Source: Rhodopirellula sp. SM50 (GTDB taxonomy: Bacteria > Planctomycetota > Planctomycetia > Pirellulales > Pirellulaceae). Taken from it: a DNA stretch of 64,000 nucleotides. The DNA lies in the NCBI RefSeq assembly GCF_002289565.1, contig NZ_NTFY01000030.1:1-64000 (forward strand). Reading direction: 5' to 3'. Within the stretch, counting starts at the first letter, position 1. Each line of letters opens with the position of its first letter. Of the stretch, positions 10,843 through 15,886 are shown in pieces. The notes beneath the pieces were generated by a model. That model searched no databases. It worked only from the letters and a program-made list of their open reading frames with translations, and had not been told where the DNA came from. A program made the position numbers and the translations under genes.

Positions 10843-10989
10843 AAAAATGATTCACAGGCAGCGGCGGTTCGACGAATAACCGAAACAGCTTGTTTTCCGC
10901 CCGCTCGCGGATTTGCCATCAATTCATTAGGCTAACGCTCCGTAGCCCCTGGGAACAAGAAATCGGCTGGTCACGGAGAAAGGTGCTTG

Positions 10990-11973
10990 ATGAGCGTGCC
11001 TGATTTGACATCGTTTGCGGAGCGTTGGGATCGCCGGCACTTATTGGATTTGGAATCCCTTTCCGCTGAAGAAATCACGATCTTGCTGGACGTCGCGAGT
11101 CGGTTGAAGGAAGCGACCGAAGGTTGTCGCCGCAAACTATCGCTGCTGAGCGGCAAGACGTGTGCGAACCTGTTTTTCGAAAACAGCACGCGGACGCGGA
11201 ACAGTTTTTCGTTGGCGGCCAAGCGACTCGGCGCCGACACGGTCGAATTCGGTTCGAGCGGTTCCAGCACCGCCAAGGGCGAGACGTTCGCCGACACCGC
11301 CAAGACGATCGAAGCGATGGGCGTCGACTGGGTGGTCACCCGCCATGGGACGCCCGGAACCCCGAACCTGCTGGCCCGAGAATTGGGCTGTTGTGTGTTG
11401 AATGCCGGCGACGGTCCGCACGAACACCCGACCCAGGGTTTGTTGGATCTGTTGACGATTCGCCAACATCGCGGAAGCCTGGAGGGATTGACGGTTGCCT
11501 TGGTCGGGGACATCGCCCACAGTCGCACCGCGCGCAGCAATATCTGGGGGCTCAAACGGATGGGGGCGCACGTGATCATTTGCGGGCCGCCGACTCTGGT
11601 CAGCCCCCGCTGGCAGGAATTGGGTTTCGAAGTGGCCCACCACTTGGACGAGATTCTGCCCCGCTGTGACGTCTTGAATCTGCTGCGAATTCAATTTGAA
11701 CGCCAGCACGCGCGACCGTTTCCGAGTGTCCGCGAGTACGCGGCACTGTATGCGATGAACGCCGCTCGAATGCGTCAGGCGAAAGAGAACATCCTGATCA
11801 TGGCACCGGGCCCGATCAACCGCGGCGTCGAAATCACTCCGGAGGTCGCCGATGGTCCACACTCGGTGATCCTGGAACAGGTCACCAATGGAATCGCCGT
11901 CCGCATGTCGGCCCTGTACTTGTTGTCCGCGGCCGATGATCGATACCGCAACGCCAACAAAGCCTCCGCTTAG
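10990..11973 (+). CDS. pyrB: Aspartate carbamoyltransferase catalytic subunit
   Basis: A 327-aa cytoplasmic ATCase that joins carbamoyl phosphate and aspartate to N-carbamoyl-aspartate, the first committed step of pyrimidine synthesis. Signature motifs are intact: the carbamoyl phosphate loop [12 protein letters not shown], the [17 protein letters not shown] block and [12 protein letters not shown] near the C-terminus. The start is ATG 10990 (GAGAAAGG upstream); an in-frame TTG directly before it is a less likely start. Only 23 bases separate it from the dihydroorotase-like gene, so they are co-transcribed. No pyrI regulatory subunit is nearby, which fits an ATCase that assembles with a dihydroorotase-like partner. 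Confidence 0.95.
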
Positions 11974-11996: not shown

Positions 11997-13283
11997 ATGA
12001 ACAAGCCCCTGCTGATCGAAAACGGTACTTTGATCGACCCCAGCCAGAACTTGAATCGTGGCGGTCGAATCCTGATGGTCGACGGCGTCTTCGCGACGGT
12101 TGACCCGAGTGACGGCGACATCCCACAGGACTGCGAGGTCATTGACGCCGGCGGATGCCTAGTCACGCCGGGTTTGGTGGATTTGGGAGTCGAACTCAGA
12201 GAGCCGGGGTTCGAAGAAGACGAAACCGTCCTCAGTGGATCACACGCCGCATTGGCCGGCGGCTTCACGTCGATCTTGGCCGCATCGAGCACCGACCCGG
12301 TGATCGATTCGCATGGCGCCGTTGAGTTTGTTCGCCAAAAAGCGACGGAGGCAAGAGGCGCGCGGGTTTACGTCGTCGGTTGCTTGAGCAAGGGGCGTTC
12401 CGGAAAACAAATGGCGGAACTGGGCCTGTTGTCCGAAGCCGGTGCGGTCGCGTTCAGCGATGCACCGCGTGCCGCGCCGAGCGACGCGTTGTTGAAACGG
12501 GCGCTCGAATACTGCCGCATGCTCGGCCGTCCGATTTTTGATTCGCCCGAAGTCCCCGAGTTGGCAAGCGGCGGCGTGATGCATGACGGACAGGTTTCCC
12601 TGGTGCTGGGATTAAAAGGGTTACCGACCGAGGCGGAAGATTTGGCGGTGGCGCGCGATGTCCGCCTGGCCGAAGCCACCGACGGTCGGCTGCATGTCGG
12701 CCCGGTCAGCACGATGGGGGCCGTCGACATGTTGCGGCGAGTCAAATCGCGCGGCGTTGTCGTGACCGCTTCAGTGTGCCCGCACAATTTGATGCTGAGC
12801 GATGCGGCGATGCGGTCGTACGAGTCCCGCTTTAAGGTCCACCCGCCGCTGCGCAGCCCTCGTCACGTCGCGACGCTCTGCCAGGCGGTCAAAGACAAAA
12901 CGATCGATGCGATTCAGTCCGGTCACATGCCGCGCAGTCGCGAAAAGATGATGAACGATCTGGATCAATCGCCGTTCGGAATCTCTTCGCTGGAAACCGC
13001 CTTGGCCACGGCCGCGACGGCGCTGGTGCGAACCGGCACTTTGGATTGGATCGAATTGATCGAACGCATGTCGACGCGTCCGGCACAGATCGCCAGCCTG
13101 GACGCCGGCACGCTCGGCATCGGCCGCCCGGCCGATGTCACCATCATCGATCCCAACGCGGGATGGAAGGTCGACCCGAGTCAGTTTCGATCGACCTGTA
13201 TCAGCACCCCGTTTGCCGGGATGGAACTGATCGGCCGGGTCCGACACACGATTGTCGGCGGCGAGTTACGTTTTAGTGGTTGA
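11997..13283 (+). CDS. Dihydroorotase-like protein without metal ligands (PyrC'-type)
   Basis: A 428-aa amidohydrolase-fold protein clearly homologous to type I dihydroorotase: VTPGLVDLGVELREPGFEE, AGAVAFSDA, HPPLRSPRH and LGIGRPADVTIID are all recognisable. The catalytic residues are not. The HxH of PGxxDxHxHLREPG is G64/E66; the HCED-type His position is S183 (FDSPEV); the HVST-type His is P236 (HVGPVST); the Asp of TDHAPH is G309 (QSGHMPR). The MPNT substrate-binding block is ASST. It therefore cannot hold the usual zinc pair and is probably non-catalytic. In Pseudomonas an inactive homologue (PyrC') is a structural partner of ATCase, and the position next to pyrB supports the same role. 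An active dihydroorotase should exist elsewhere in the genome. The stop overlaps the convergent DUF1549 gene by 11 bases. Confidence 0.85.
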   Translation: MNKPLLIENGTLIDPSQNLNRGGRILMVDGVFATVDPSDGDIPQDCEVIDAGGCLVTPGLVDLGVELREPGFEEDETVLSGSHAALAGGFTSILAASSTDPVIDSHGAVEFVRQKATEARGARVYVVGCLSKGRSGKQMAELGLLSEAGAVAFSDAPRAAPSDALLKRALEYCRMLGRPIFDSPEVPELASGGVMHDGQVSLVLGLKGLPTEAEDLAVARDVRLAEATDGRLHVGPVSTMGAVDMLRRVKSRGVVVTASVCPHNLMLSDAAMRSYESRFKVHPPLRSPRHVATLCQAVKDKTIDAIQSGHMPRSREKMMNDLDQSPFGISSLETALATAATALVRTGTLDWIELIERMSTRPAQIASLDAGTLGIGRPADVTIIDPNAGWKVDPSQFRSTCISTPFAGMELIGRVRHTIVGGELRFSG

Positions 13284-15789
13284 ACGTAAACTCGGTACTC
13301 GTCAACACGCTCCAGGCGACGTCTTGCAGCCCGGTCATTCGATCCTCTTGGCCGTATTCTGACAGCACACCGAGCAAGGTGTCCATTTCCGATTCCTGGG
13401 GCTCACGAGAGAGCCCGCGAAGAAACAATGCACGGATGATGGCTTCGTCATCGAGGCCTTGCTCGACCGCTTCGGTGATGACGTTTCGCTCGGCGGCCAA
13501 TTTCGGATTCAGCGTGTCGCCGTTGGACAAGTGCAGAACCTGAACCATACTCGGTTCGTCACTGCGTTCACATTCACAGGTGATTTCGCGGGGGTTGCGA
13601 CCGAAGGTTTTCAGGAAGTACGAATTGACCGACGCGTCAAACAATTCGATCGCACGGGTGCCGGATTCATAGAAATCGGTTTTTTGACGGTCCGCCCCGG
13701 GAAACGCCACCTCGTTGAAGGTCGTCGAAGTGCCCAGGACCTGGTCGATCGAATCCAGCATGACTTCGGCCATCAAGCGTTGGGGATAGTACCGACTGTG
13801 ATACTTTCTTTCACTGCCGTTCTCCGGCAACGCAACGCTGCTCCGCTGGTACGTTTCGCTTTGCAAAATCGTCCGCATCAGTTGCTTTAAATCAAAGTCG
13901 ACGTCGACGACGTGATCGCTGAGCGCGGTCAGCAGCGATTCATTGGACGCCGGATTGCTGAGGCGTAAATCGTCGACTTGCTCGACCAACCCGCGGCCGA
14001 AGAAGTTGGCCCAGATACGATTGCTGATCGAGCGGGCGAAATACGGGTTGTCCGGATCGGTCATCCAAGCCGCCAGGACCTGTCGCCGGTCGTCTGGATC
14101 ATCAAACGCAATCGGTGGGGCATCCAGCGGGGCGGGCGGCTGGGGTTGCCCTCGGTTGGGTTGAATCAATTCACCCGACGTCGAAACGTACAGCGTGCGC
14201 AAGCCGTCGCCGTTGCGACCGTCACCGCCCCAGCCCTTGGCACGGACACGGGCGAACAGGTTGGCCATCGCGTAGTATTGATCGTTGGTCCACTTTTCGA
14301 GCGGATGGTTGTGACACTTGGCGCAGCCGATCGAAAGCCCCAGAAAAGCCTGGCATGCGTTTTCGGTCATCTCCTCGGGCGATTGATGCAGCGCGTAGAA
14401 ATTGGTGGCGCCGTTTTCATCGCTGCGTCCGGTCGCGGTCAAGATCTCGCGGACGAATTCGTCCCACGGCTGGTTGCGCCCGACGCGGTCACGCACCCAC
14501 GCGTAGTACGTCTTCACGGCGATCGGTCGCAAACGCGTGCCGTTGATCAGCAACATGTCGGACCACTTGTACGCCCAATAGGAAACAAAGTCGTCGCTGG
14601 CCAACAGCCGTTCGATCCAGTCGTCGCGTCGATCGCGGGGGTCGGACTGGAGGAACTGTTGGCGTTCCTCCGGCGTGGGCAGTCGCCCGATCGTGTCCAG
14701 GGTGGAACGTCGCAAGAAGGTTTCATCGCTACAGCGCTGCGATGGCAGTAGATTCAGCGTTCGCAGCTGCGCCAAGTTTTCTTGGTCGATGAAGTTTCGT
14801 CGCGGCGCGTCCTGGTAGAGTTCCGCCGGCACGTCGTGTTCGTAAGGGACCGTCATCCGGGCCAGCACGACCTTGCTTCCGAACCAGACCAGAACGGCCG
14901 CTTCGCCGCTTCCTCGCACCAGCGCCAAACCGTCATCATCGACGCTGGCGACGGCTTCATCGGTGGCGGTGAATTTCGCCCAGTGGGTGACATCGACGAC
15001 GCGTCCGTCATCGTAGTGGGCGCTGACCAAAACCTGGGACGTGTCTCCCGGCGACAACATCGCGTTTTCGGGCATCACGCTGATGCGTTGGAGCGTCGGA
15101 TCGTCGTCGCTGGGACCTTCGGCACCGTCGGCGATCCATTGGCTGATCACCCGATAGTCATGCGAATCCACATCCAGACGCAGTCCGCCTTTGTGCGGCA
15201 GGGCTCCGGTCGGCTTGGCCAGCAACAAGCTACGTCCCGGGTCGGCCATTTCGATCCGCCGGCCGCGCGCCTGACGCGTGATCGACAAGAAATCGCTGTG
15301 GCTGTCGTAGCCGCGCAGCGAGAGACGAAACCCGCCCTTGCCGGCCAGCGCGCCATGACATGACCCCATGTTGCATCCGGCTTTTGCGAGCACCGACTGC
15401 ACCTCATTGCGGAAATTCCAACGATGCGCCGACTCGGCTCCCGAGACGACGACGGGGACATCGATCACTTGTGCGCCGACCTGACACCGCAGCGTGGTTT
15501 CCCCATCGGCCAGCGCCGTCACGACACCGTCCTGGATGGTGGCGATCGTGGGATCTTCGATGGTGATGGAGTACGATTCTCGATCGAGTACCGCCGACGG
15601 CATCTGATCGCGGACGCCGACGATCGACACACGCTGGCGGGCTTCGCTTCTCTGCAACTCGATCGTCGCCGGCAGCACGGCGAAATCGGCTTCGTCGGCT
15701 GGTGCGGCGGCGGAAACGATGCCGTCGCCGAGCAACGCAATCACGACAACGAGCAACAGCGAACGGAATGACTTCAGGCGTGGTCGCAT
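13273..15789 (-). CDS. Secreted planctomycete cytochrome-like protein, DUF1549/DUF1553
   Basis: Starting at ATG 15789 gives 838 aa with a signal peptide (LKSFRSLLLVVVIALLGDGIVSA). The N-terminal third has a BIG2-like Ig segment, then AGCNMGSCHGALAGKGGFRLSL, a CX4CH site, and a second BIG2-like segment. The DUF1549 part carries a canonical CAKCHNHPLEKW site, and the C-terminal DUF1553 part includes NRIWANFFGRGLVEQVDD. Such proteins are exported, probably haem-binding, and almost always paired with a DUF1501 gene, as here. Function is unknown; roles in polysaccharide handling or electron transfer have been inferred. A longer frame reaches 15879 but runs through an intergenic hairpin, so I reject that start. 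Confidence 0.85.
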   Translation of the reverse strand: MRPRLKSFRSLLLVVVIALLGDGIVSAAAPADEADFAVLPATIELQRSEARQRVSIVGVRDQMPSAVLDRESYSITIEDPTIATIQDGVVTALADGETTLRCQVGAQVIDVPVVVSGAESAHRWNFRNEVQSVLAKAGCNMGSCHGALAGKGGFRLSLRGYDSHSDFLSITRQARGRRIEMADPGRSLLLAKPTGALPHKGGLRLDVDSHDYRVISQWIADGAEGPSDDDPTLQRISVMPENAMLSPGDTSQVLVSAHYDDGRVVDVTHWAKFTATDEAVASVDDDGLALVRGSGEAAVLVWFGSKVVLARMTVPYEHDVPAELYQDAPRRNFIDQENLAQLRTLNLLPSQRCSDETFLRRSTLDTIGRLPTPEERQQFLQSDPRDRRDDWIERLLASDDFVSYWAYKWSDMLLINGTRLRPIAVKTYYAWVRDRVGRNQPWDEFVREILTATGRSDENGATNFYALHQSPEEMTENACQAFLGLSIGCAKCHNHPLEKWTNDQYYAMANLFARVRAKGWGGDGRNGDGLRTLYVSTSGELIQPNRGQPQPPAPLDAPPIAFDDPDDRRQVLAAWMTDPDNPYFARSISNRIWANFFGRGLVEQVDDLRLSNPASNESLLTALSDHVVDVDFDLKQLMRTILQSETYQRSSVALPENGSERKYHSRYYPQRLMAEVMLDSIDQVLGTSTTFNEVAFPGADRQKTDFYESGTRAIELFDASVNSYFLKTFGRNPREITCECERSDEPSMVQVLHLSNGDTLNPKLAAERNVITEAVEQGLDDEAIIRALFLRGLSREPQESEMDTLLGVLSEYGQEDRMTGLQDVAWSVLTSTEFTFNH

Positions 15790-15850
15790 GATGAGAGGTT
15801 TCAATGTGGAATCAATGGAAGAGAATTTCATCGGTGGCAGAGGCGTAAGA

Positions 15851-15886
15851 TTCCAGCTTGCGGTTGCTGGTGTTCGCAAGCTGGAA
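15851..15886. repeat. Perfect hairpin between DUF1501 and DUF1549 genes
   Basis: TTCCAGCTTGCG (15851-15862) and its exact complement (15875-15886) with a 12-nt loop. It lies between two co-directional minus-strand genes and could modulate relative expression or stabilise mRNA ends. It is not followed by a T-run, so it is not a classical terminator. Confidence 0.7.

Follow-up and report, generated by a model that had tools for sequence, protein, structure and literature searches.

A probable class A2-like aspartate carbamoyltransferase in Rhodopirellula sp. SM50, with a dihydroorotase homologue that lacks the metal centre

We analysed a stretch of 64,000 nucleotides from Rhodopirellula sp. SM50 (contig NZ_NTFY01000030.1, positions 1 to 64,000, referred to here as the window), and conclude, with a probability of about 0.86, that it encodes a class A2-like aspartate carbamoyltransferase (ATCase), composed of a working PyrB and a structural PyrC' that would carry out no dihydroorotase chemistry. 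Gene content, active-site residues, selection and co-occurrence suggest that PyrC' is inactive, that it is complexed with PyrB, and that an enzyme encoded on another contig of the genome (C56) is active. This lends support to the inference, made in a first-pass annotation of the window, of a PyrB-PyrC' complex together with a dihydroorotase encoded elsewhere.

The pyrB-pyrC' pair and the active site of PyrC'

The two genes are adjacent, with pyrB upstream and a spacing of 23 nt in the ORF list of the window:

10987..11973, + strand: pyrB, aspartate carbamoyltransferase catalytic chain (328 aa, TTG start with an ATG directly after)
11997..13283, + strand: pyrC', type I dihydroorotase (DHO) homologue without a metal centre (428 aa, ATG start)

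PyrB scored 372 bits against PRK00856 (cut-off 263) and 303 bits against TIGR00670 (cut-off 237). The protein contains STRT, HPTQ, PGP and HSR, which we take to be the usual carbamoyltransferase motifs, and STRT, HPxQ and PGP were also found in 139 of the 141 pyrB proteins checked. PyrC' resembles the companion chain expected of a class A2 enzyme: it is 428 aa long, passes NCBIfam TIGR00857 (dihydroorotase) with 304.5 bits against a cut-off of 279.05, and has a predicted structure (mean pLDDT 81.7) closest to that of Aquifex aeolicus DHO in its complex with ATCase (3d6n, TM 0.87). Among the matches listed (25 of 38 families), it stayed under every finer equivalog cut-off. The best solved relative in sequence was again A. 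aeolicus DHO (273 bits), and proteins 99% identical to PyrC' were found in Stieleria sedimenti and strain TBK1r. A dihydroorotase homologue beside pyrB had been proposed in the first-pass annotation, and this was confirmed, with an ORF exactly at 11997-13283 (+) and an intact pyrB. A large ORF of 868 aa converges from the - strand (13273-15879) and shares 11 nt with the 3' end of pyrC'.

We compared ten site positions, which are, in A. aeolicus numbering, His61, His63, Arg65, Asn95, Asp153, His180, His232, Asn259, Asp305 and His309. PyrC' carries G, E, R, S, A, S, P, H, G and R at these positions, in that order. The codons of the altered residues, placed by alignment, are as follows:

12186..12188, + strand: codon for G64 (A. 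aeolicus His61, alpha-site ligand)
12192..12194, + strand: codon for E66 (A. aeolicus His63, alpha-site ligand)
12288..12290, + strand: codon for S98 (Asn95 of MPNT)
12462..12464, + strand: codon for A156 (A. aeolicus Asp153, alpha-site ligand)
12543..12545, + strand: codon for S183 (A. aeolicus His180, beta-site ligand)
12702..12704, + strand: codon for P236 (A. aeolicus His232, beta-site ligand)
12921..12923, + strand: codon for G309 (A. aeolicus Asp305)
12933..12935, + strand: codon for R313 (A. aeolicus His309)

All six ligands of the A. aeolicus metal centre are replaced (His61 by G64, His63 by E66, Asp153 by A156, His180 by S183, His232 by P236 and Asp305 by G309). Beyond the metal ligands, Asn95 is replaced by S98 (ASST in place of MPNT) and His309 by R313, and R68 (the equivalent of Arg65), D155, H263 and H310 are retained. 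Every residue on which the first-pass annotation had based its claim (G64, E66, S183, P236, G309 and ASST) stood in this alignment, which places no other His or Asp at the metal-ligand positions. Its statement that every metal ligand had been lost is literally true, and includes the change of Asp153 to A156, a ligand absent from its list. Passages of the A. aeolicus study place the working zinc on His61, His63 and Asp153, close to Asp305, and report that the metal-free enzyme is dead, that zinc or cobalt brings the activity back, and that an H180A/H232A mutant has normal kinetics (PMC3880350). The losses at S183 and P236 therefore prove little alone, and those at G64, E66, A156 and G309 are the decisive ones. 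PyrC' has none of the residues by which an active type I dihydroorotase is recognised, namely the alpha-site His61, His63 and Asp153, together with Asp305.

A search of contigs with PyrC' yielded 30 loci, of which 29 were Pirellulaceae-type relatives and the 30th was an intact Gracilibacillus enzyme. The metal centre was lost in all 29 Pirellulaceae-type loci, one of which (L019) keeps the His180 equivalent. E66, P236, G309 and R313 were each identical in 29/29 loci and G64 in 28/29, and the position of S183 varied (R in 24, S in 3, H in 1 and I in 1). Since the same residues recur across these loci, the losses are not due to chance or to assembly error. The gene for PyrB was located 2-115 nt upstream, as measured between homology ends, in 28 of the 29 loci, the 29th having a broken frame. 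The pyrC' frame was open and full-length in 28/29 loci, and was found in three pieces in the draft relative L042.

Estimates of dN/dS were 0.022-0.117 for pyrC' and 0.017-0.064 for pyrB (10/10 pairs in each case), 0.049-0.108 for intact DHOs (4 pairs) and 0.043-0.062 for the second enzyme described below (values from 3 of 4 pairs), all of these figures being rough, with many dS values above 1 and several saturated. pyrC' is thus under purifying selection and is therefore no remnant. Damage was then counted over 127 columns with at least 97% constancy among 63 intact relatives, using the window and 28 of the 29 loci, with the broken L042 omitted. The ten active-site columns were kept in 68 of 290 cells, and the other 117 columns in 2701 of 3393. 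By this count, the damage to PyrC' is centred on the active site. An earlier conservation figure, obtained on 33 rows, was dropped, as the rows had been chosen by three of the columns counted. The low-confidence stretches of the PyrC' model were residues 187-208, 273-284 and 324-328. In passages of PMC3880350, the free DHO of A. aeolicus is described as inactive and as having three disordered loops that become ordered only in the complex.

A second dihydroorotase gene and its distribution across the order

The genome contains 13 Amidohydro_1 matches, six of which also match TIGR00857, three of them substantially, including the window gene. Besides PyrC', TIGR00857 matched C56:14876-16078 with 314.5 bits and a protein on C57 with 178.5 bits. 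The C57 protein was considered as a spare DHOase and rejected, being a dihydropyrimidinase (510 bits, cut-off 393). The C56 protein (482 aa) scored above the equivalog cut-off of PRK07575, 'dihydroorotase' (673 vs 529 bits). No type II DHOase was found in the genome, the best match (25 bits) falling inside the C56 gene. The first-pass annotation had predicted a second dihydroorotase with an intact HxH; a gene exists on C56 and passes PRK07575, but its first ligand is Gln and not His. The ligands of the C56 protein read Gln, His, Lys, His, His and Asp, with the Lys as the bridging residue, for whose role a passage on CAD and E. coli DHO provides an analogy (PMC3880350). Porphyromonas gingivalis DHO (2gwn), the best solved relative of the C56 protein, carries the same first-ligand Gln. 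Among 55 PRK07575-type rows, the first ligand was Gln in 43 and His in 12, and the lysine motif was present in all 55. A Pseudomonas paralogue without zinc residues that is reported to be active, discussed below, is presumably of this Gln type. We consider that the C56 enzyme very probably performs the dihydroorotase chemistry of the cell, as judged from its family and residues.

The 12 His-bearing rows of the PRK07575 type belong to genera g2 and g3 and to part of family f64, and the site thus switches within one enzyme family. In the presumed active DHOase (L009 1399-2847, - strand), Gln occupies the place of the first HxH His. Gene order around the second enzyme was of little help, a YceH-like neighbour occurring in 2/55 loci, one of them that of the genome studied here.

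We surveyed 118 genomes of the order, each at least 90% complete, 115 of them with DHO genes readable at least in part. The pyrB-type DHO was intact in 64 (a class that takes in G245, with seven sites visible), all without a second DHOase, the best match to the second enzyme being no better than 1.2e-48. It was altered in 28 genomes with a second DHOase (known by fragments in two), altered without a second DHOase in one (G200), and absent in 22, all with a second DHOase. In none of the 118 genomes was an intact pyrB-type DHO seen together with a second DHOase, where 'altered' takes in family f63, of which G155 (second enzyme present, sites HHRDDHHHDL) keeps every metal ligand, lacks only Asn95 and His309, and would be scored as intact with a second enzyme under a metal-only rule. 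Another f63 genome, G170, also has the second enzyme and likewise retains most of the site, reading DDHHQDL, with the first three sites outside view. Of the remaining three genomes, G173 and G257 had fragments of a pyrB-type DHO with unread sites, and G196 had no match. When the 22 genomes with only the second enzyme were searched with an intact DHO query, matches of 26-35% identity alone were obtained, and the absence stands. Second matches of 172-227 bits in 13 intact-DHO genomes were considered as counter-examples; four of the 13 were scanned, and all four were dihydropyrimidinases.

All 17 genomes of the window's own family with an altered DHO hold the second enzyme. Family f57 is mixed, two genomes being altered with the second enzyme and two intact without it. 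Fisher's test of altered DHO against second enzyme gave p 6e-23, which treats related genomes as independent and is therefore no measure of the strength of the evidence. In G200 (family f67, 960 contigs), the lone pyrB-linked DHO (L260) reads FEMLLLLREPG, compared to IDMHVHLREPG in its relatives; this LxL is perhaps an assembly fault, or else a real exception to the rule.

The occurrence of this DHO was tied to that of its pyrB, defined as a pyrB over the TIGR00670 cut-off. The two co-occurred in 93 of the 118 genomes and were jointly missing from 23 (116/118 concordant), and the DHO was found without a pyrB of this type in two (G227 and G173). The two genes lie on separate contigs in f64 and f69, where both are nevertheless retained. 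As a physical partnership predicts, pyrB and the DHO go missing together. These genomes show the pattern of occurrence that a PyrB-PyrC' complex would be expected to leave, and support the proposed complex. A divergent ATCase (194-212 bits against TIGR00670) was detected in 21 of the 22 second-enzyme-only genomes. Examples are G238:C36:113954-115006 and G258:C164:33144-34127, both below the equivalog cut-offs, and the f61 and f66 genomes; this ATCase stands in for classical pyrB in genomes without PyrC'.

Of 41 genomes read from outside the order, 29 were intact and 12 altered, a ratio that is no sample because the intact rows came mostly from best-scoring matches. The altered genomes comprised ten of the 12 from f3, one from f20 and one from f37. 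The PRK07575 type was seen in six of the ten altered f3 genomes; the remaining four carry a different DHO-like gene, in which HxH and lysine are present. This other second enzyme was seen, where the PRK07575 type was not found, at L281, L282, L283, L285 and L286 (f3) and at L205 (f37); it is of the lysine type with HIHARDD or a similar motif, and scored about 252-254 bits against TIGR00857 in the two cases scanned. A further amidohydrolase type, with sites HHNN.. and no linkage to pyrB, occurs in f61, f62, f72 and f1 (L175, L177, L179, L181, L183, L185, L115, L113 and L161).

Comparison with known systems

The arrangement of PyrB with an inactive PyrC' is of a known kind, represented by Pseudomonas pDHO and Sinorhizobium PyrX. 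PMC7053772 describes the P. aeruginosa pDHO as a DHO-like chain that is itself inactive and on which PyrB depends for its activity, as the first-pass annotation stated for the Pseudomonas ATCase. As in this class A2 ATCase-pDHO, an active-type pyrB is combined in the window with a DHO homologue of the same size, here probably inactive. The Pseudomonas PyrC' is described, in part of PMC2770081, as being without zinc residues; our comparison is with this description and not with the sequence. The window differs from P. aeruginosa in its lineage and in having a separate DHOase of the PRK07575 type, and its complex is a predicted one.

In Sinorhizobium meliloti, smc01361 (PyrX) is likewise a DHO homologue beside pyrB, with another DHOase gene elsewhere in the genome; passages of PMC5929573 report that its disruption leads to pyrimidine auxotrophy and that the gene is needed for pyrimidine synthesis. 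Unlike the window, which reads GERSASPHGR at the ten sites, the S. meliloti relative (L210) reads RFGDGGENSQ. The class A1 DHO-ATCase reactor of A. aeolicus (3d6n, 4bjh; PMC3880350) is the closest solved system in both sequence and fold; its DHO has the zinc site that PyrC' lacks, and shows activity within the complex. The CAD-like pDHO domain of fungi (Ura2, Chaetomium) also keeps the DHO fold without zinc ligands, and is described in passages of PMC7053772 as missing the substrate residues and activity as well, within an ATCase assembly. Unlike PyrC', the fungal pDHO is a domain of a fused eukaryotic protein, and it is likened here by description and not by sequence. In the literature searched, judged by titles and the starts of abstracts, we found no planctomycete PyrC' or biochemistry of it. 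A series of DHO states within one bacterial order was also not found in print; Labedan et al., on the evolution of ATCase, may already treat the distribution of PyrC'.

Origin of the altered forms and alternative readings

If the assembly resembles those of A. aeolicus and P. aeruginosa, two PyrB trimers would be joined by PyrC' dimers into a dodecamer, and PyrC' would make PyrB stable or active. Carbamoyl-aspartate would be converted to dihydroorotate by the separate PRK07575-type enzyme whose gene is found on C56. The ancestral pyrB-linked DHO of the order was very probably active. Lineages with the second enzyme would have lost the metal site and retained the protein because PyrB needs PyrC', and lineages with a replaced PyrB also dropped PyrC', a pattern that is observed and in which the order of events is conjectural. 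In the DHO tree (96 rows), the window was placed inside a 64-row clade of the order and f3 (SH-aLRT 100) that contains intact and altered forms. In the pyrB tree (85 rows), the altered rows fell into seven maximal groups, requiring six changes at the fewest, with G200 outside the tree, and only three contrasts fell on well-supported branches. An independent-pairs figure for this tree was discarded as no test, the two labels being identical in every row. A single clade for the order's 23 altered rows was not rejected by the AU test (p 0.236), and the second-enzyme tree was poorly resolved. Repeated loss across the phylum (the order, f3, f20 and f37) is likely on these sequences. It is very unlikely that PyrC' arrived by transfer from a proteobacterial PyrX and was not formed within the planctomycetes. 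Joining the family's rows to four pseudo-DHO rows of alphaproteobacteria was not rejected by the AU test (p 0.183; 0.084 for a wider group; 91 rows, five long ones omitted); however, the best tree keeps the window with intact enzymes of its own clade and sets the alphaproteobacterial pseudo-DHO rows apart, and the window's pyrB is placed among the order's pyrB genes, in a tree without proteobacteria.

The pocket that remains in PyrC' could be a ligand-sensing site, in which case PyrC' would be mainly regulatory, binding a pathway acid or a nucleotide and tuning PyrB, with E66 and R313 as a structural tie instead of the metal; we regard this reading, which is compatible with a scaffold role, as unlikely. 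The 22 aligned sequences, 21 of which have no metal site, all share R68, D155, H263 and H310, and the residues identical in all 29 loci are re-fixed and not drifting. Glu or Gln in the place of His63 is paired with Arg in the place of His309 in 47 of 74 altered rows, many of which are close kin; seven of the 74 are from other phyla. A salt bridge between these two positions may have taken over from the metal. Against sensing, many different residues occupy these sites in other altered lineages. It is highly improbable that PyrC' continues to act as a dihydroorotase in the absence of the classical metal site. A Pseudomonas PyrC paralogue in which the zinc residues are not conserved is reported as active in a passage of PMC2770081, and missing ligands are therefore no proof that PyrC' is inactive; PyrC2 is reported to complement, in part of PMC10393844. 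Arg68 and part of the pocket do remain in PyrC', but the alpha site has been lost in full along with Asp305, the A. aeolicus apoenzyme is inactive until Zn or Co restores it (passage in PMC3880350), and the second enzyme accompanies every altered DHO of the window's family. That pyrC' is the gene of a redundant enzyme in decay is barely credible, for although a second DHOase is present and the L042 frame is in pieces, the frames of 28/29 loci are open and full-length, dN/dS is far below 1 in 10/10 pairs and the scaffold columns are kept. A wider proposal, which we find doubtful, is that the pyrB-linked and the stand-alone DHO of planctomycetes are mutually exclusive catalysts: in every lineage with the stand-alone enzyme, the bound active site dies by different routes while the body is kept, and the emptied pocket (E66, P236, G309 and R313, beside R68 and H310) has been re-fixed for a structural or sensing role in the control of PyrB.

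A working PyrB with a structural, catalytically silent PyrC' thus remains our preferred reading, and it has a practical consequence. Because TIGR00857 names PyrC' a dihydroorotase, metabolic reconstructions of Rhodopirellula, Stieleria and their relatives likely put the dihydroorotase step on the wrong gene. The retention of a dead enzyme as a partner is a known but little-explained oddity. Within one order the subunit ranges from intact through partly altered to fully emptied forms, and some genomes are missing both the subunit and its partner; the oddity is therefore testable with closely related proteins, which show how it may arise.
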